Below are positions 3,522 through 48,370 of a stretch of DNA of 64,000 bases, one piece after another. Position 1 is the first letter of the stretch, and each line of letters opens with the position of its first letter. Under the pieces are notes generated by a model. That model was not told the origin of the DNA, ran no database searches, and saw only the letters and a program-made list of their open reading frames with translations. Location of the stretch: NCBI GenBank assembly GCA_015233895.1, contig JADFXG010000001.1, forward strand, positions 310,001-374,000, read 5' to 3'. Position numbers and translations under genes: made by a program. Origin of the DNA: Nitrospirota bacterium. GTDB lineage: Bacteria; Nitrospirota; Thermodesulfovibrionia; Thermodesulfovibrionales; Magnetobacteriaceae.

Positions 3522-3844
3522 CGCTTAATTATAAACGAAAAGGCAGAAAAAAAAGAAAGATTATATTGTATTTATAAAATGTTATTGTTTTGGAACGCAA
3601 CTTTGGTGCTAAATTGACTTAATAGCTTGACTTATTGATGTAGTAAAATAATAAACTATTAGTTATAATACCAAATTGTAGTCAGAAGCATAACGAGGCG
3701 GCAAGGAAAAAGTGACGCAGGCGTACTTTTAGTACGTTGAGGAGCTTTTGACGTATGCCAACGAAGTTAGGCGATTGAATGCGGCTTGGTATAAGTGCAA
3801 GAGTAAACCGATATGTATTATGAGAACAAAATGGAGGGAAATGA
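3522..3844. other. 323-bp intergenic region
   Basis: Between the divergent radical SAM gene and the 110-aa gene. It holds repeat B1 (3668-3792) and, at about 3587-3606, a sequence resembling a decayed end of an A-type repeat (GAACGCAACTTTGGTG against GAACGCAACTCGGTAT at 50730-50743). No RNA gene or convincing protein-coding frame was seen. Confidence 0.5.
3668..3792. repeat. Repeat B1, MITE-like element (125 bp)
   Basis: The element begins ATACCAAATTGTAG and ends GCGGCTTGGTAT, giving imperfect terminal inverted repeats ATACCAA/TTGGTAT. Long blocks match B2 at 39392-39547 in the opposite orientation, including GTCAGAAGC, CGGCAAGGA, ACGTTGAGGAG and the terminal TTAGGCGATTGAATGCGGCT. It is too short to encode a transposase and is probably a non-autonomous mobile repeat. 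Confidence 0.75.
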
Positions 3845-37317: not shown

Positions 37318-39405
37318 TCACTTAAGAAGCCCAAGGTTATAAGCAGCCTCCTCGTAATTGGGTTTTAGTCTAAGAGCCTCTTCATATTGTATCTTTGCCT
37401 CAGCAACTCTGCCCACACGAGCAAAGGCTGTGCCCAAATTATTATGTGCTTCTGCAAAATCTGGTTTCAGTTTAACTGCAAGTGTGTATTGCGCCACAGC
37501 ATCGTTGAGGTTTCCTGTTTCATCGTAGCAATTTCCGAGGTTATTGTGAGCCTCGGCAAAATCAGGTTTCAGTGCTATCGCCCTCTGATAGTGGCTTATG
37601 GCTTCAGGGAAACGTCTGAGTTTAAAGTACAGATTCCCCAGATTATTATAAGTTGCCTCATACAAGGGGTCAATGCGTACAGCTTTTTCAAAGTCGTTTA
37701 AAGCTATATCAAACCGGCCCTCTGCCGCATATAACAGAGCATCATTATTGATGGCTTCAACAAAGTCAGGCTTCAGGGCCAGCGCTAAAGCATAGTATTT
37801 ATGCGCTTTTGTGTTTTCTCCCTGTTTCTTAAAGAGAGTGCCTACATTATTGAGAGCCTCAGGGAAATTAGGTTTCAATTTTATAGCCTCAAGGTAGTAC
37901 TTTTCAGCTAAAGCGTTATTTCCGAGTTTTTCGTAAGCTCTGCCCATATTATAATATGCACCAAAATATGACGGCATCAACCTCAGGGCTATTTCATATT
38001 CCTTGATGGCTTTCTCAAAATCTCCCCTTAGAAGATAAGCATTTCCAAGGCTGTTGTGCGGGCGAACTTTAAGGGGACTCTTTTTTGCTGCATCCTCCCA
38101 AATCAATACTCCATCTTGCCACAATGAATTCCTCTTATAAGTTAAAACACCTAATAAGACCAACAGAATCAACGCCAAAACACCAGATACGTTATAAGTA
38201 TTTTTTTTCATTTTTTCCGACAGAAAAATTAAACCGGCTGAAAAAGACATTAAAAAACCTATTGACGGTAAATACAGTCTATGTTCAAAAATAACGTCTG
38301 CAATAGGAATTACAGATGATTCTGGCAGAAGGGTTATAAAAAACCAAAATATTCCAAAACTAATGAGTCTTATTACAGGATTTCTCCCTGATTTTTTAAA
38401 TAGATAAAATGAAAATAAAACAATACCTGAAAGAAATAAAAAAGAGAAAAATACCTGTGGATTGAAGAGAGTCTTATAGACTGGGAAATCGTAATCAAAA
38501 TTTTGTCCAACAGGCACAAAAAGAAGCCTTATATAACTCACAATAACCCTGAACTGGGTTAACAGATAGTGTTTAGAGGTGATCACTCCGTGGCTTCCGA
38601 TAAAGAGGTTTTCACTGAGAAGTGACTCATCGGAATGTCTGGCATTACTACTCAGAATAGTCAACGGAACGATGAGAGTCAACAAGAGAAACGGCAAGAC
38701 ATTGAATATTTTCCTTTTAATACTGCCGCCAAAAAAAACAGTGTCAATTAAAAAAATTAAAAGAGGAATAATAACAGCTAATTCCTTTGTTTTTATTGAA
38801 AGCAGCATAAAAAAAAGAGGCAGCACATAACCCATAAACACTTTAGGCCGGTTATAGTTATTTAATCTTGCCCTGATGTAAAAAAACAGAGAAAGCAAAC
38901 AAAAAAAAGCAGCCAGAGATGAGAACCGTTGAACTATATAAGTAATTGACTGAGTTTCAATCGGATGTAAACCAAAAAATAGGGCGGAAAGGAAGGGTAA
39001 AAAACTAAAATCAGTTCTGCACTCATGTATTTCTTCTTTAGAAAAGTAAGGTGTCTTTAATATAATCTTTAGCAAAAAAAATACTAAAACAGTGTTTAAA
39101 ATATGAATTGCTACATTTGTTATGTGGTATGCTTTGACATCAGTACCTGAGAAGTGATAGTTTATACCAAAAGACAGATAACCTATAAAACGTGACCTGA
39201 ATTCCGTCTCCATGTTGCCTTGACCAACACGGAGCGGATTTAAAAAATTTCTGTAATCCTTAATTATGTTATTGTCAGTAATATTTACAAAATCATCAAG
39301 CATAAACGGTACATTGAAGGTGTTAGAATAGGCAAGAAATACAAGAGACACCAGTGCTAGTACCTGAATATAGACGTTTTGCGTAAACCTTACACCAAGC
39401 CGCAT
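37318..39405 (-). CDS. TMTC-like membrane glycosyltransferase with TPR repeats, copy 1
   Basis: A 695-residue protein. About ten membrane helices (residues 10-420) carry a GT-C-type acidic loop (FMLDDFVNI), followed by about seven 34-residue TPRs (430-695). The architecture matches TMTC/O-mannosyltransferase-like proteins. The acceptor is unknown. The first codons ATG CGG CTT GGT lie inside repeat element B2, so this N-terminus was supplied by the element. The paralog follows upstream at 39629-41734, and the last four TPRs of the two are nearly identical. Confidence 0.88.
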   Translation of the reverse strand: MRLGVRFTQNVYIQVLALVSLVFLAYSNTFNVPFMLDDFVNITDNNIIKDYRNFLNPLRVGQGNMETEFRSRFIGYLSFGINYHFSGTDVKAYHITNVAIHILNTVLVFFLLKIILKTPYFSKEEIHECRTDFSFLPFLSALFFGLHPIETQSITYIVQRFSSLAAFFCLLSLFFYIRARLNNYNRPKVFMGYVLPLFFMLLSIKTKELAVIIPLLIFLIDTVFFGGSIKRKIFNVLPFLLLTLIVPLTILSSNARHSDESLLSENLFIGSHGVITSKHYLLTQFRVIVSYIRLLFVPVGQNFDYDFPVYKTLFNPQVFFSFLFLSGIVLFSFYLFKKSGRNPVIRLISFGIFWFFITLLPESSVIPIADVIFEHRLYLPSIGFLMSFSAGLIFLSEKMKKNTYNVSGVLALILLVLLGVLTYKRNSLWQDGVLIWEDAAKKSPLKVRPHNSLGNAYLLRGDFEKAIKEYEIALRLMPSYFGAYYNMGRAYEKLGNNALAEKYYLEAIKLKPNFPEALNNVGTLFKKQGENTKAHKYYALALALKPDFVEAINNDALLYAAEGRFDIALNDFEKAVRIDPLYEATYNNLGNLYFKLRRFPEAISHYQRAIALKPDFAEAHNNLGNCYDETGNLNDAVAQYTLAVKLKPDFAEAHNNLGTAFARVGRVAEAKIQYEEALRLKPNYEEAAYNLGLLK

Positions 39406-39547
39406 TCAATCGCCTAATTTTGTTGGCATCGTCTAAAACTCCTCAACGTCTCCCCTAAAAGGGGAATCCCCTGTAAGGGGAGGCGTCGTTTTCTCCTTGC
39501 CGCCAAGGGGAATCCCCTTGGGGACGCTTCTGACTGCTACTTGGTAT
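39392..39547. repeat. Repeat B2, MITE-like element (156 bp) overlapping a start codon
   Basis: Minus-strand orientation starts ATACCAAGTAGCAGTCAGAAGCG and ends TTAGGCGATTGAATGCGGCT, then TGGTGT. It matches B1 at 3668-3792 but carries two extra palindromic blocks built on GGGGATTCCCC. Its final bases include the ATG of the downstream TMTC-like gene. Confidence 0.78.
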
Positions 39548-39628
39548 TACAATTTCAGAGAAAACATTCATTGTAACGATATTGTACTTTTTATTGGAAA
39601 CTTTTTTCCATATGGCATCCTGTGATAG

Positions 39629-41734
39629 TTATCGCTTAAGAAGTCCAAGGTTATAAGCGGCCTCCCCGTAATTTGGTTTTAATTTGAGCGCCTCATCATA
39701 TTGCTGCCTTGCCTCAGAGACTCTTCCCACACGGGCATAGGCCGTTCCAAGATTATTATGAGCCTCGGCAAAGTCGGGTTTTAGTCTAACAGCAAGAGTG
39801 TATTGAGTTATAGCTTCTGTAAGGTCTCCTGTTTCATCATAACAATTTCCGAGGTTATTATGAGCCTCGGCAAAATCAGGGTTCAGTACTATCGCCCTCT
39901 GATAGTGGCTTATGGCTTCAGGAAAACGTCTGAGTTTAAAGTATAAATTCCCAAGGTTATTATAAGTTGCCTCATACGAGGGGTCAACTCGTAAAGCCTT
40001 CTGGTATCGTTGCATAGCTGCATCAAATTTTCCGGCAGATTCGTACATCTGGCCGATATTGTTAATTGCCTCAGGAAAATCAGGTTTCAATGCAACAGCC
40101 TTTGAGTAATATGAAAAAGCAAGTGGTTTGTCTCCTCTTTTTTCATAGATACCAGCAAGATTGTTAAATGCCTCGGCAAAGTCAGGTTTTAACCTTATAG
40201 ACTCTACATATTGTTTTTCTGCCAAATCAGTTCTTTTTAACTTCTCATACGCCTTACCAAGGTTGTATCTTGCCTCGTAGTACACAGGCTTTAACCTTAC
40301 AGCTTCAATGTATTCTTTAAGGGCGGCATCAATTTGTCCGTTAGCAAACAGTGCGTTGCCAAAATTATTGTGAGGACGGGCTTTCCCCGGGCTTTTTAGC
40401 GCCGTATCCTGCCAAAGAGTTACACTGTTGCCCCATACTGAATTTCTCTTGTAAGTTAACACCAAAAGTATTAAGGTTATTACGGCTGTCAATATGATTA
40501 AATATTTTTTAAGGCCAGAGTTTTTCCTTTCCAACTTTGCCGTCAAATATGAGACCCCCATAAGCACCGTCAGAAACAACCCAACAGAGGGTAAATACAA
40601 TCTGTGTTCAAAGATTACGTCCGCTATAGGTATGACTGAGGATTCAACTGAGAGAGCCAGAAAAAACCATAAAATACCAAATCCTGCCAATTTTGCTATC
40701 GGATGGGATTTTGATATTTTATACAAGTAGAGAGCAAATAAGAAAATCCCCAAAAGCAGCAAAAACGAAAGCAGAACTCTCAGGTTAAAAAAACTCTTAA
40801 AAACAGGAAAATCATAATCAAGGTTTTGCCCAATTGGTAAACACAAGAGCTTCAGATACCTGACAATAACAGGAAATTGCGTACGGAGATAGTCGCCGCG
40901 TGAGATTTCATCGTAACTTACAACTGATAAGCTCTCAGCTAAAGCCCCTCCGGTTTTAGCTGAACCACCGTACAAAGTTAATGGAATTATTATAAGAGTT
41001 AAATAAAATGGGAAAAGGTTTTTAAGTTTTCTTTTGAAATTATCAGTAAAAAACGAAAACTCTATGAGAGTAAGCATAAAGGGCAGGGTAAATGCAGTTT
41101 CTTTGGTCTTCATAGCGAGCACTGCGGAAATGGCAGAAAGCGCATAATAAAAGAAACGTTTCTTAGATGTGCTGACTCTCGCAGTAATGTATAAAACCAC
41201 TGCTGCGAGATAAAAAAGTGAGCAGAGGGAGGTTAGCCTCTGAACTATGTATGTAACTGCCTGTGTTTGAACCGGATGCAGAGCAAAAACCATTGCCGTC
41301 AGAAACGGTAAATATTTGTAAGCAGCGATGTCTTTGCAGTTATCAGAAAAGAGTGGCGTATTGAGTAATAACTTTACCAAAATAAGTACAAGCAATGAAT
41401 TAACCATATGCACGGCAATATTAAACACGTGGTAGCTAAAAACATCAGCGCCAGAAATCCAATAGTTGAGGGCAAACGTGAAGTATCCGGCAAAGCGTGA
41501 TTTAAACCCATACTCCATAGTCCCTGAACCTATAGCAAAAGGGTTAATGAAATTCCTGTAGTCTTTAATCAGAGCATTGTTTATGATGTTACCGGCATCA
41601 TCCATCTGAAAAGGAACGTTGAGGGTGTTTGAATAGGCAGCAAACGCCAGTGTTAATATTAAAACAGCCTGAAGTGTTTTATTTCTTTTTAGTTTTTCTG
41701 ATATGTTTTTCATGCCGTTCATATTTAATCTCAA
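39629..41734 (-). CDS. TMTC-like membrane glycosyltransferase with TPR repeats, copy 2
   Basis: A 701-residue paralog of the neighbouring gene with the same order: membrane part with FQMDDAGNI acidic loop near residue 45, many helices to about 425, then about seven to eight TPRs. The N-terminal half has clearly diverged from copy 1 while the last TPRs (for example LGNLYFKLRRFPEAISHYQR) are identical, which suggests gene conversion or domain selection. A role in surface glycan or protein O-glycosylation is inferred from the fold and adjacent GT2 genes. Confidence 0.88.
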   Translation of the reverse strand: MRLNMNGMKNISEKLKRNKTLQAVLILTLAFAAYSNTLNVPFQMDDAGNIINNALIKDYRNFINPFAIGSGTMEYGFKSRFAGYFTFALNYWISGADVFSYHVFNIAVHMVNSLLVLILVKLLLNTPLFSDNCKDIAAYKYLPFLTAMVFALHPVQTQAVTYIVQRLTSLCSLFYLAAVVLYITARVSTSKKRFFYYALSAISAVLAMKTKETAFTLPFMLTLIEFSFFTDNFKRKLKNLFPFYLTLIIIPLTLYGGSAKTGGALAESLSVVSYDEISRGDYLRTQFPVIVRYLKLLCLPIGQNLDYDFPVFKSFFNLRVLLSFLLLLGIFLFALYLYKISKSHPIAKLAGFGILWFFLALSVESSVIPIADVIFEHRLYLPSVGLFLTVLMGVSYLTAKLERKNSGLKKYLIILTAVITLILLVLTYKRNSVWGNSVTLWQDTALKSPGKARPHNNFGNALFANGQIDAALKEYIEAVRLKPVYYEARYNLGKAYEKLKRTDLAEKQYVESIRLKPDFAEAFNNLAGIYEKRGDKPLAFSYYSKAVALKPDFPEAINNIGQMYESAGKFDAAMQRYQKALRVDPSYEATYNNLGNLYFKLRRFPEAISHYQRAIVLNPDFAEAHNNLGNCYDETGDLTEAITQYTLAVRLKPDFAEAHNNLGTAYARVGRVSEARQQYDEALKLKPNYGEAAYNLGLLKR

Positions 41735-45308: not shown

Positions 45309-46136
45309 TTACACGCTTTTTCCCAAAAACTCCTTCAATTCATCTATTGAACCGGCTTTTTTGATCAGGTTTTTAAACTCCTCTAATTTATCTACAGAGT
45401 TTATAGCTCTAACAATATTCATCAGCTCAAGTCCAGCTAAACCATATTTGAGCTCCAGTCCTAACTCAATCCCCTCAAGCAACCCCTCCTGTTTTCCTTC
45501 AAGCAACCCCTCTTGATAAATATCACTCTCTCTCACATCAATCGTTATAGGCATTTTAGTTACCTCCATTTTAACTTTAGGATATAATTTCCGTAAATCA
45601 GAAAGAATAAGCAACTTTCTGATATAACTTTCTCTTTCTTTGGGCGATAGTAACGAAGTAAGTTTATCAAGAATACTTCTTATTGTGACGTCCACATCAT
45701 TGGTGTTACAAAGTATCGCTAATACAATATCTTCAGGACTATCGCTGGCTATAAGCTGGCTGCAATCAATCTCCCGGATATCAACCACTTTGTAGGAGTA
45801 TTTTATATACTCGTTTTCCATATGATTTTGCATGTTCAGAGGCGCACTACCGACATAAAGCAATATTTGTATCGGTAATATCTTATGTTGGTTAAAGATG
45901 AACCCTGAATATAGATAGAACCGTTGTAGCATATTGTTTTCATTTCTGCCTTGCACCTCAGTATGTATCAGTTTTCCATCAGGAACCTCCATCACCAAAT
46001 CAGGCTCCCTTAATTGGATATCCGGGAACTGGACATCTATAAATTTACACGTATCATACCCAGTGAGAATTTTTAGAAATACTTTTGGCATATCCTTCAA
46101 AATGTCTTTCAACGTAACATCATACTTTTGGTGCAC
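45309..46136 (-). CDS. Rpn-family nuclease (PD-(D/E)XK, transposase_31-like)
   Basis: A 275-residue protein starting from GTG 46136, with AGGCAAAA upstream. The N-terminal nuclease core shows REPDLVMEV and KLIHTEVQGRN (about 43-64), fitting the PD-(D/E)XK D...ExQ pattern. The C-terminus has short EGLLEGKQ repeats and a conserved helical tail. Rpn proteins cut DNA and are implicated in recombination or defence. A broken second copy of the gene lies at 47885-48423, with a 112-bp identical stretch. Confidence 0.85.
   Translation of the reverse strand: MHQKYDVTLKDILKDMPKVFLKILTGYDTCKFIDVQFPDIQLREPDLVMEVPDGKLIHTEVQGRNENNMLQRFYLYSGFIFNQHKILPIQILLYVGSAPLNMQNHMENEYIKYSYKVVDIREIDCSQLIASDSPEDIVLAILCNTNDVDVTIRSILDKLTSLLSPKERESYIRKLLILSDLRKLYPKVKMEVTKMPITIDVRESDIYQEGLLEGKQEGLLEGIELGLELKYGLAGLELMNIVRAINSVDKLEEFKNLIKKAGSIDELKEFLGKSV
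45370..45481. repeat. 112-bp direct repeat, copy 1
   Basis: Identical to 47946-48057 in the same orientation. It encodes the conserved C-terminal tail of the Rpn-family protein. Confidence 0.85.
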
Positions 46137-46220
46137 TTTTGCCTCTCCCTATTATTTATAATCATACTATTATAACACAGCGATTAAATGAAAATTTTCC
46201 CCCCGCACATACTTTTTTGC

Positions 46221-46250
46221 TTGACTTTTTTTTAATATGTGCTTTACTAT
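46221..46250 (+). promoter_or_regulatory. Promoter for the beta-propeller gene
   Basis: TTGACT (46221-46226), 18 bases, TACTAT (46245-46250), about 26 bases before the translation start. Confidence 0.5.
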
Positions 46251-46275
46251 GTCACAAAAGGCAGGGAGGTGTTGA

Positions 46276-47802
46276 GTGACGATGTTTTATGGTTCAATCA
46301 AAAAGTGTGCATTTATGAGAAAGTTCATAATATTATTAATATGCAGCGTTTTTTTATTTGTTTTTAGTAGTAATTCATTTGCAGATATCGGTGGTATCGG
46401 TATCGATACAACCACAACAGCTTCAACCACAACAGCACCAACCACCTCAACGACAACAGCGTCAACAACTACCACAACGAGAGCCACAACTACCACGACA
46501 GCAGGCACAACCACAGCATCAACAACGACTACTGCATCAACTACTACGACAACGGCATCAGGGACTACTTCATCCGGTTACACTTGGACTGCGAGAACAG
46601 GTGCAGGCAGTAGAAATTGGCAAGGAGTAGCATCCTCTTCTGATGGATCAAAACTTGCTGCTGCAGTTAATAGTGGTTATATTTATACCTCAACAGATTC
46701 AGGTGCAACATGGGTAGCACAAACAAGTGCTGGAAGCAGAAGTTGGTATCCTATAGCGTCATCGTCAGATGGATCAAAACTCGCTGCAGGGGAGTTCGGA
46801 GGTTATATTTATACATCAACAGATTCTGGTGCAACATGGACGGCGCAAACTAATGCTGGTATCGGGTATTGGTGGAGTATAGCGATGTCATTGGATGGGA
46901 CAAAACTCGCTGCTGGAGTCAAAGGTCCGGGATATATTTATACCTCAACAGATTCAGGTGCTACCTGGACTGAGAGAACAGGTGCTGGTTATAGATATTG
47001 GACCGGTATAACATCGTCATCAGATGGGTCAAAACTTGCTGCTCACGCTGGTATTGGTGGGTCATACATATATACCTCAACAGATTCAGGTGCTACATGG
47101 ACAGAACGAACAAATGCTGGTTATAGATATTGGCAATCAATAGCAGGATCATCGGATGGGAAAAAGCTCGTTGCCGGAGTAGGCGGTGGTGGTGATGGTT
47201 TCACTGGTTATATTTATACCTCAACAGATTCAGGCGCTACATGGACAGAACGAACAAATGCTGGTAGCAGAAATTGGTGGTCAATAACATCATCATCAGA
47301 TGGATCAAATCTCGCTGCAGGGAATTTCTCGGAATATATTTATACCTCAACAGATTCTGGTGCTACATGGACTGCACAAACTGGTGCTGGTAGCAGAAAT
47401 TGGTACGGAATAGCTTCATCATCAGATGGTACTAAAATAGTCACTGAAGTTGCTTATGGCTATATCTACACTGGTGTATCCTCATCACTCACACATACAC
47501 TTACAGCGCCGACAACAACAGCAGTCTATCGTGGTGGTAATTTAGGGCCATATTCCTCAACCGTTATTAATAGCTCAAGTTCTACCTATTACATGTACGC
47601 TTATGTTTATACACCAAGCGGGACATGGCTTGCTCTAAATAGCGGTATAACTATATCATCGGGACAAACATTGTCTGCAAGCAATCTATATTCGTATGTT
47701 CCATACGGTGCTGAAACTGGTACCTATTATTATTTTGAAATAATTTATGATACAAGCTGGAATACTTACGAGTATAAGTATTTCACTTATACTGTCTATT
47801 GA
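46276..47802 (+). CDS. Exported Thr-rich, seven-unit Asp-box beta-propeller protein
   Basis: A 508-residue protein with a hydrophobic signal segment (after MRKF, ending near SFAD). GTG 46276 has GGGAGG six bases upstream; ATG 46282 or 46315 are alternatives. A Thr/Ala/Ser linker (about 38-95) is followed by seven units of about 42-48 residues built on TW-x-(A/E)-(R/Q)T-x-AG, W, SSDGSKL and GYIYTSTDSGA. Six STDSGATW Asp-boxes are intact. A beta-sandwich-like C-terminus ends in tyrosine-rich strands. It is probably a surface or secreted propeller; ligand unknown. Confidence 0.85.
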   Translation: MTMFYGSIKKCAFMRKFIILLICSVFLFVFSSNSFADIGGIGIDTTTTASTTTAPTTSTTTASTTTTTRATTTTTAGTTTASTTTTASTTTTTASGTTSSGYTWTARTGAGSRNWQGVASSSDGSKLAAAVNSGYIYTSTDSGATWVAQTSAGSRSWYPIASSSDGSKLAAGEFGGYIYTSTDSGATWTAQTNAGIGYWWSIAMSLDGTKLAAGVKGPGYIYTSTDSGATWTERTGAGYRYWTGITSSSDGSKLAAHAGIGGSYIYTSTDSGATWTERTNAGYRYWQSIAGSSDGKKLVAGVGGGGDGFTGYIYTSTDSGATWTERTNAGSRNWWSITSSSDGSNLAAGNFSEYIYTSTDSGATWTAQTGAGSRNWYGIASSSDGTKIVTEVAYGYIYTGVSSSLTHTLTAPTTTAVYRGGNLGPYSSTVINSSSSTYYMYAYVYTPSGTWLALNSGITISSGQTLSASNLYSYVPYGAETGTYYYFEIIYDTSWNTYEYKYFTYTVY

Positions 47803-47833
47803 TACAAGGGAATTTTTAAAAGAAAACGTATTA

Positions 47834-47873
47834 ATCCGCAGATGGACGCAGATGAAAAAAACAATCTGCGGAT
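47834..47873. terminator. Hairpin after the beta-propeller gene
   Basis: ATCCGCAGAT and ATCTGCGGAT (10 bp) separated by 20 bases containing another GCAGAT. It resembles a widespread dispersed repeat and separates the propeller gene from the broken Rpn gene. Confidence 0.6.
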
Positions 47874-47945
47874 AAAATCTTTTCCTACACGCTCTTTCCC
47901 AAAAACTCCTTCAATTCATCCACGGAACCAGCTTTCTTGATGAGA

Positions 47946-48057
47946 TTTTTAAACTCCTCTAATTTATCTACAGAGTTTATAGCTCTAACAATATTCATCA
48001 GCTCAAGTCCAGCTAAACCATATTTGAGCTCCAGTCCTAACTCAATCCCCTCAAGCA
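47946..48057. repeat. 112-bp direct repeat, copy 2
   Basis: Identical to 45370-45481, offset 2576 bp, same orientation; the pair brackets the beta-propeller gene. Confidence 0.85.
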
Positions 48058-48190
48058 GCCCATCACGTTTACCCTCAAACAGCCCCTCCTGTTTACCCTT
48101 AAGCAATCCCTTCTCCTCAGCTTCCTTATAAATATCGCTATCGGCAAAATCAATCGTTATAGGCATTTTCTCCACCTCCAGTTTTACTTT

Positions 48191-48370
48191 ATACCGAGTT
48201 GCAATCTAAACTATAATATAAAGAGGAGATTACTACGTCGCTACGCTCCTCGTAATGACGGATAATTCCGCCCATACACAACCCACGCCGTCATTGCGAA
48301 CCCCCGAATGGGGTCCCAGGGGTATCCCCTATGGGGAGGGCAATCTCCTCTTTTGAGCGCAACTTGGTAT
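48191..48370. repeat. Repeat A1, MITE-like element (180 bp) inserted in an Rpn gene
   Basis: Terminal inverted repeats ATACCGAGTTGC (48191-48202) and GCAACTTGGTAT (48359-48370) match at 11 of 12 positions. Inner arms AAAGAGGAGATT and AATCTCCTCTTT are perfect reverse complements. The core has the TACGTCGCTACGCTCCTCGT and GCCGTCATTGCGA blocks known from dispersed repeats in many bacteria. The second copy is at 50568-50743. Confidence 0.8.

Follow-up and report, generated by a model that had tools for sequence, protein, structure and literature searches.

A transposable repeat arm as a probable translation-start module for downstream genes in a Nitrospirota genus

Whether a mobile repeat can take over the start of translation of a gene beside which it lands is the question raised by element B2, which lies in the 64,000-nt stretch of DNA analysed here (the window; G000:C1:310001-374000, where G000 is the 3.7-Mb source genome). 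The first-pass annotation had placed this repeat at 39392-39547, had located the ATG CGG CTT GGT of a 695-residue protein inside it, and had suggested that the element may act as a portable start of translation for frames captured downstream of it. The span proved accurate to within one base per side: B2 is a 154-nt non-autonomous MITE on the minus strand at 39393-39546, with arms TACCAAG...CTTGGTG and TAA target-site duplications at 39547-39549 (gene-distal, 5') and 39390-39392 (gene-proximal, 3'; both minus strand). The main ATG borne by the element (39403-39405, minus) indeed opens the frame of a TMTC-like membrane protein with C-terminal TPRs (37318-39405, minus; 695 aa).

This ATG is directly preceded by an in-frame TGA (39408-39406), the stop codon of a mini-ORF, ATGCCAACAAAATTAGGCGATTGA (39406-39429, minus), whose seven-codon frame (ATGCCAACAAAATTAGGCGAT-TGA) ends exactly at the main ATG in a TGAATG arrangement. 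The mini-ORF is served by a Shine-Dalgarno (SD) sequence, GAGGAG (39439-39444, minus), 9 nt ahead of its ATG and forming a duplex of -8.1 kcal/mol with the 16S tail. The ribosome-binding site named in the first-pass annotation, AGGCG, is present but weak, and the stronger start is an ATG that follows GAGGAG and lies 24 nt upstream of the ATG singled out there. Because of the TGA before the second ATG, the TMTC-like gene would have to rely on stop-start coupling or on the weak AGGCG.

The next in-frame ATG, GTG or TTG of the TMTC-like frame is a GTG at codon 19, within the first transmembrane helix, leaving the 3' end of B2 with the only start codon ahead of that helix. Most TMTC homologs align only from about residue 5-16 on, their N-termini before this point being unrelated; together with the lack of an alternative start before codon 19, this makes the B2 ATG the likely start of the gene. 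A tandem paralog upstream (39629-41734, minus) has its own, non-element start and stops 85 nt before B2. No empty allele of this site could be read in the other genomes of the genus, as G003, the nearest relative among them, has a 100-N assembly gap there and G001 and G002 contain only more distant homologs of the gene.

Two further related elements lie in the window. B1 (3669-3791, plus; 123 nt; TAA duplications at 3666-3668 and 3792-3794) shares the end of B2, as had been noticed, both carrying the 20-mer GGCGATTGAATGCGGCTTGG, which occurs twice in the window against 0.00 expected. Yet B1 has captured no gene: its element frame closes after about 15 codons, and the gene downstream has its own SD. 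An element of 178 nt from a longer subfamily (48192-48369, minus; TAA duplication; 3' arm TTGCAACTCGGTA) has TTG where B2 has ATG and is likewise not fused to a gene, its 5' arm being conserved at about nine places in the genome. Elsewhere in the window, within 45310-48191, seven tandem repeats of 126-144 nt (46547-47459) lie inside one 508-aa ORF, and on either side of them stands one copy of a block of about 206 nt (45310-45515 and 47886-48091). A search against Rfam gave no credible known RNA in the element, the sole sub-threshold hit being SAM-II at 39062, outside it.

The element family and its start module

Copies of the element were collected by their 3' end at no more than three mismatches from four genomes of the genus, yielding 36 matches to GGCGATTGAATGCGGCTTGG in the source genome and 21, 73 (G002) and 35 in the three congeners (G001, G002 and G003), with none for the reversed control. 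The analysed set comprises 163 distinct copies, or 150 non-redundant ones after orthologous sites had been merged by flank similarity, a procedure that may miss some duplicates. Elements are mostly 86-154 nt long, clustering at 122-123 and 139-143 nt with 122, 123 and 139 the commonest lengths, and they contain no ORF beyond the mini-ORF and no transposase coding sequence. Imperfect terminal inverted repeats (TACCAAGYNGCANTCA) with few mismatches are found at either end, and the family consensus folds end to end as a single long hairpin (z = -6.7). Flanking trinucleotides are identical in 52 of the 115 two-ended copies and are then always TNA (TAA 23, TTA 18, TCA 8, TGA 3), in agreement with the empty sites. 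With dispersed, multiple copies and empty orthologous alleles at 13 loci, the B2 family is thus a non-autonomous, MITE-type element of this Nitrospirota genus that inserts at TNA. A strict-pattern scan of the genome collection recovered only the genome G003 (Nitrospirae bacterium nDJH6bin1, same genus), and a search of plasmids and viruses gave no copy of the element.

The 3' module has the form GAGGAG-(9-10 nt)-ATGCCAACGAAGTTAGGCGAT(TGA or AGA)ATGCNGCTTGGTA, read as the codons ATG CCA ACG AAG TTA GGC GAT, then TGA or AGA, then ATG CNG CTT GGT A and the target copy. A change of TTGA to TAGA has, in many copies, joined the upstream frame to the main ATG. With the 16S rRNA tail (taken from G001, GGATCACCTCCTTT), the SD duplex at the first start amounts to -7.7 to -8.6 kcal/mol in captured copies that retain this start, and to -0.6 to -6.0 kcal/mol at the main, second ATG. 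An unbroken module, in which the first ATG is present and no stop codon intervenes ahead of the second, is associated with capture of a gene (9 of 22 such copies, against 8 of the 128 others; p = 7e-5). This association may have arisen before or after insertion, and in both cases it speaks for the module being used. With G002 left out, the figures are 9/21 and 8/57 (p = 0.012); the weaker dependence seen in the three genomes rich in captures (p = 0.01) may be due to selection acting once the element had inserted.

Frames downstream of the element ATG

Before the copies were collected, it had been proposed that the element end should be in frame with genes more often than one time in three. Among the 150 non-redundant copies, the frame of the ATG stays open for at least 100 codons into the flank in 21, against 6 and 5 in the other two phases, a share of 21/32. 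Since the TNA target by itself often closes phase 1, the count was redone on the flanking DNA alone, giving 21, 12 and 6 (21/39; p = 0.007 against one third), a moderate excess once junction effects are removed. The opposite arm, which carries CTG at the equivalent codon, serves as a control: it is followed by a long matching frame in 2 of 108 copies, compared with 15 of 108 at the ATG arm (Fisher p = 0.0016), where the Fisher tests count copies as independent though they share descent. This frame excess and the opposite-arm control, together with the empty sites described below for 13 genes, support the earlier suggestion of a portable start that captures downstream frames.

Read by eye, the long frames in phases 1 and 2 look like genes with their own downstream start, such as the aconitase c107 with its own AGGAGG and TTG, or contain no recognisable gene, and were not counted as captures. 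Long frames in phase with the ATG were also rejected for c054, c129 and c158, which have a native ATG just downstream, and for c128, where no gene-like protein is evident; at c082 a native GTG at the junction is possible. On two occasions the opposite arm joins a gene in phase without an SD module, a hydrolase-like gene in G003 (L181, LQLGMTELHFIKAG) and a BioF-like gene in G002 (L233, LQLGINHPDLIKSQQ).

The captured genes form a curated set of 17 clusters, in which each protein was read and judged, while the mechanical frame counts are free of such judgement. Besides the TMTC-like gene of the window, the set comprises holB, nadD, argC, livH, ubiA, a GtrA family member, two prepilins, a sensor kinase, a protein kinase, an ATP-grasp enzyme, a methyltransferase/glycosyltransferase, a DUF58-like gene (recognised by reading, with no Pfam match), a MaoC/SDR gene, one gene without a Pfam match, and an insert in an NRPS gene. 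Both holB (DNA replication) and nadD (cofactor synthesis) are usually essential in bacteria.

For 13 of the captured genes, an insertion-free ortholog, and hence one without the element start, is present among the four genomes, and these empty sites place the insertion at or barely inside the native start. The exchange of N-termini can be followed in several proteins: in ubiA, MHFIKRTG becomes MLLGIKRTG (the gene begins ATGCACTTTATAAAGCGT in G000 and ATGCTGCTTGGTATAAAACGT in G003); in the GtrA family member, MTEINSYRKQTIKQF becomes MRLGIRQF, with MTEINSYRKQT lost and MRLG gained; and in the methyltransferase, MSASLTTKK becomes MQLGMTNKK. At holB the element is present in three species and the site is empty in the fourth. 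Comparison of holB in G000 and G001 gives 52 of 53 matching positions for the module, 763 of 897 for the gene and 50 of 61 for the remainder of the element, which also has 17 gap positions; the near-identity of the module may owe something to copying from one element to another. At livH both species have lost all of the element except its final 20-30 nt, and it is the start end that stays. In one prepilin (L173, in G003:C55, minus), the predicted leader MPTKLGDRMQLG stands directly before VTLLELVVV and the protein still matches the Pfam N_methyl motif; the original leader has apparently given way to the element, in which case the glycine of the peptidase site would be element-derived.

Two loci show an uneven distribution of filled and empty alleles. 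The DUF58-like gene is filled in G001 (L167) and G003 (L291) and empty in G000 (L292) and G002 (L288), while the sensor kinase is filled in G000 (L035) and G002 (L217) and empty in G003 (L290) and G001 (L306), patterns at odds with how closely G000 and G003 are related. Even so, the filled alleles have private changes (MQHG) or an identical nested double element in common; the element may have been excised precisely, or alleles may have passed from one species to another. The empty DUF58-like alleles have no ATG, GTG or TTG near the expected start, their frame beginning with ATAATAAAAGT and overlapping the upstream stop; to judge from this reading, these alleles may natively use ATA or another rare start.

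Weighing the readings

Element copies have inserted with target duplications at sites that are empty elsewhere, their ATG is in frame with the genes that follow, and the module is retained. From these sequences, we infer that ribosomes initiate at the element start, such that the arm acts as a translation-start module that has been taken over by downstream genes, a reading to which we assign a probability of about 0.84. On landing at a gene's 5' end or slightly within it, most often where two genes of an operon meet, the element would cut the gene off from the ribosome-binding site it originally had and, in many cases, from its native start codon; a gene whose frame matches that of the element ATG would survive by starting in the element instead. 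Where a copy has AGA, translation would begin at the ATG served by GAGGAG and add the N-terminal tag MPTKLGDRM(R/Q)LG. For holB in G000 and G003, the predicted element-derived N-terminus is MPTKLVDRMPLG. In copies with TGA, such as B2, it would begin at the second ATG through TGAATG stop-start coupling, the weak AGGCG or both, giving MRLG. At ATGA targets, the terminal A and the TGA duplication also rebuild the native ATG in phase.

That last feature raises the alternative that the rebuilt ATG is the real start, with the element ATG upstream of it irrelevant. In argC, livH and both kinases, the insertion lies in the TGA of a native ATGA start, and the last A of the element and the duplicated TGA restore an ATG 12 nt downstream of the element ATG and in phase with it; 7 of the 13 clusters with an ATGA junction are real genes with their native start restored in this way. 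However, roughly half of the captured clusters carry a codon other than ATG at this position (GTA, ATA, CTT, ACC or GTG), the TMTC-like gene included, whose junction contains no rebuilt native ATG. The rebuilt codon is also not kept, having become TTG in livH of G003 and ATA in the histidine (sensor) kinase of G002 while the element ATG was retained, and SD pairing is near zero at the native-start position (+0.3 to -1.7 kcal/mol). We thus regard this alternative as unlikely. That the captured genes are decaying or mis-called, their frames open by chance or their true starts further downstream, is very unlikely: c054 and c158 do have their own downstream SD and ATG (and were excluded from the curated set), and TMTC-like genes are multi-copy, but Pfam domains are intact and begin at residues 8-13 in several captured proteins, including the core genes holB, nadD and argC, and the holB arrangement is kept in three species at about 85% gene identity. 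Read-through, in which the element inserts a peptide in frame in the mode of Rickettsia palindromic elements rather than supplying a start, would fit the copy in an NRPS adenylation domain (L013, G000:C15:35896-39029, element at about 37403-37525). This copy lies just before NVYGPTETT, and its frame is open across the 123-nt element and the 3-nt duplication (42 codons) and for at least 539 codons upstream; it is either such an insert or a very recent insertion. At most of the captured loci checked, by contrast, the distance from the stop of the upstream gene to the element is 3-32 nt, as at an operon junction (85 nt for TMTC), and the element itself contains in-frame stops ahead of the module, making read-through very improbable as the general explanation.

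A more substantial competitor is survivorship, in which an ordinary repeat with an ATG in its arm by chance hits gene starts at random and only translatable insertions survive, the start being used with no special capacity behind it. Related elements elsewhere in the phylum share the TTGAATGCGGCT end but have AAG where the upstream ATG would stand, such that the arm ATG is old and not obviously selected for capture, and 13 of the 22 unbroken modules do not lie beside genes. Against this, the CTG-bearing opposite arm rarely captures, and the 73 copies of G002, which mostly have AAG and TGA and thus lack the module, account for a single capture, compared with about 17 at the 78 non-redundant sites of the other three genomes. 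We consider survivorship a possibility worth keeping in mind, if a somewhat doubtful one. Under the reading of the arm as a start module, the module may have spread through enabling such insertions, or the captures may simply be survivors.

Precedents and origin

Short mobile repeats lying in frame within ORFs were described as Rickettsia palindromic elements (Ogata et al. 2000; reviewed in PMC10969869). Like those, the B2 family consists of mobile repeats of about 150 bp that occur in frame in unrelated genes and add peptide to host proteins. Those elements, however, are described as fused inside ORFs, whereas this one mainly replaces the 5' end and brings an SD and a start codon; most of its copies carry in-frame stops, and reading through the whole element is clear in only 1 of about 17 (L013). 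ERIC and RU elements of enterobacteria, small mobile sequences whose open frames likewise form predicted N-termini, make up the N-terminal part of a few predicted proteins (Delihas 2007, PMC2759123). Their loci are mostly predicted small or hypothetical proteins, unlike the core genes and empty orthologous sites that show replacement here, and the text of that paper contains neither "start codon" nor "Shine-Dalgarno". In-frame fusion of small repeats to genes is thus already known, while for the supply of SD and start codon to many core genes by the terminal module of a MITE, we found no report, and so no direct precedent, in the open-access literature.

Small bacterial mobile elements are usually viewed as intergenic bystanders, promoters, terminators or in-frame inserts. 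Correia elements and insertion sequences, for example, can supply promoters to adjoining genes; the B2 family is similar in being a mobile sequence that carries an expression signal, and differs in that this signal, which lies in phase with the terminal repeat, is one for starting translation and not transcription. Here, the translation start of about 17 unrelated genes has apparently been replaced by one family of elements, with the state before insertion seen in the empty alleles of sister species. This offers a testable case of how a selfish repeat may live cheaply in dense operons and of the turnover of start sites and N-termini in bacteria, and the module may represent a natural, portable cassette of ribosome-binding site and start. 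It also advises caution in annotation, since starts called upstream of the conserved region of a protein may be genuine and repeat-derived.

Duplications of TNA targets are known in part of the IS5 family, such as the IS1031 group, and the B2 family resembles MITEs with such duplications in being short and non-coding, with terminal inverted repeats and a 3-bp TNA duplication. It differs from them in that no parent transposase was found: PF13340 has no match in the source genome, and none of seven PF01609 matches has matching arms. The autonomous parent may be extinct or may belong to a family other than IS5.

Diverged relatives with different arms and the same core are present in 32 of 396 genomes of the phylum (E <= 1e-4), and those that retain the 3' end have AAG (in one case TAG) at the codon of the first ATG of the module, with the TTGAATGC end largely kept. 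We tentatively picture, at somewhat less than even odds, a subfamily of this phylum-wide palindromic repeat that became a translation-start cassette by two point changes. The first would have turned AAG into ATG at the correct spacing from the existing GAGGAG, and the second TTGA into TAGA, joining the upstream frame to the ATG of the arm. The resulting transposable initiation module would have made landings within the first codons of essential genes in operons survivable and would have rewritten host N-termini recurrently, including a prepilin leader. In G203, G230, G030, G257, G314 and other genomes (L328-L335), the core AAGGCGGCAAGGAG...GTACGTTGAGGAGC is common to elements whose arms differ (for example CATACGGAG...CTCCGTATC), and the relatives look as if a single core had been combined with several terminal repeats.
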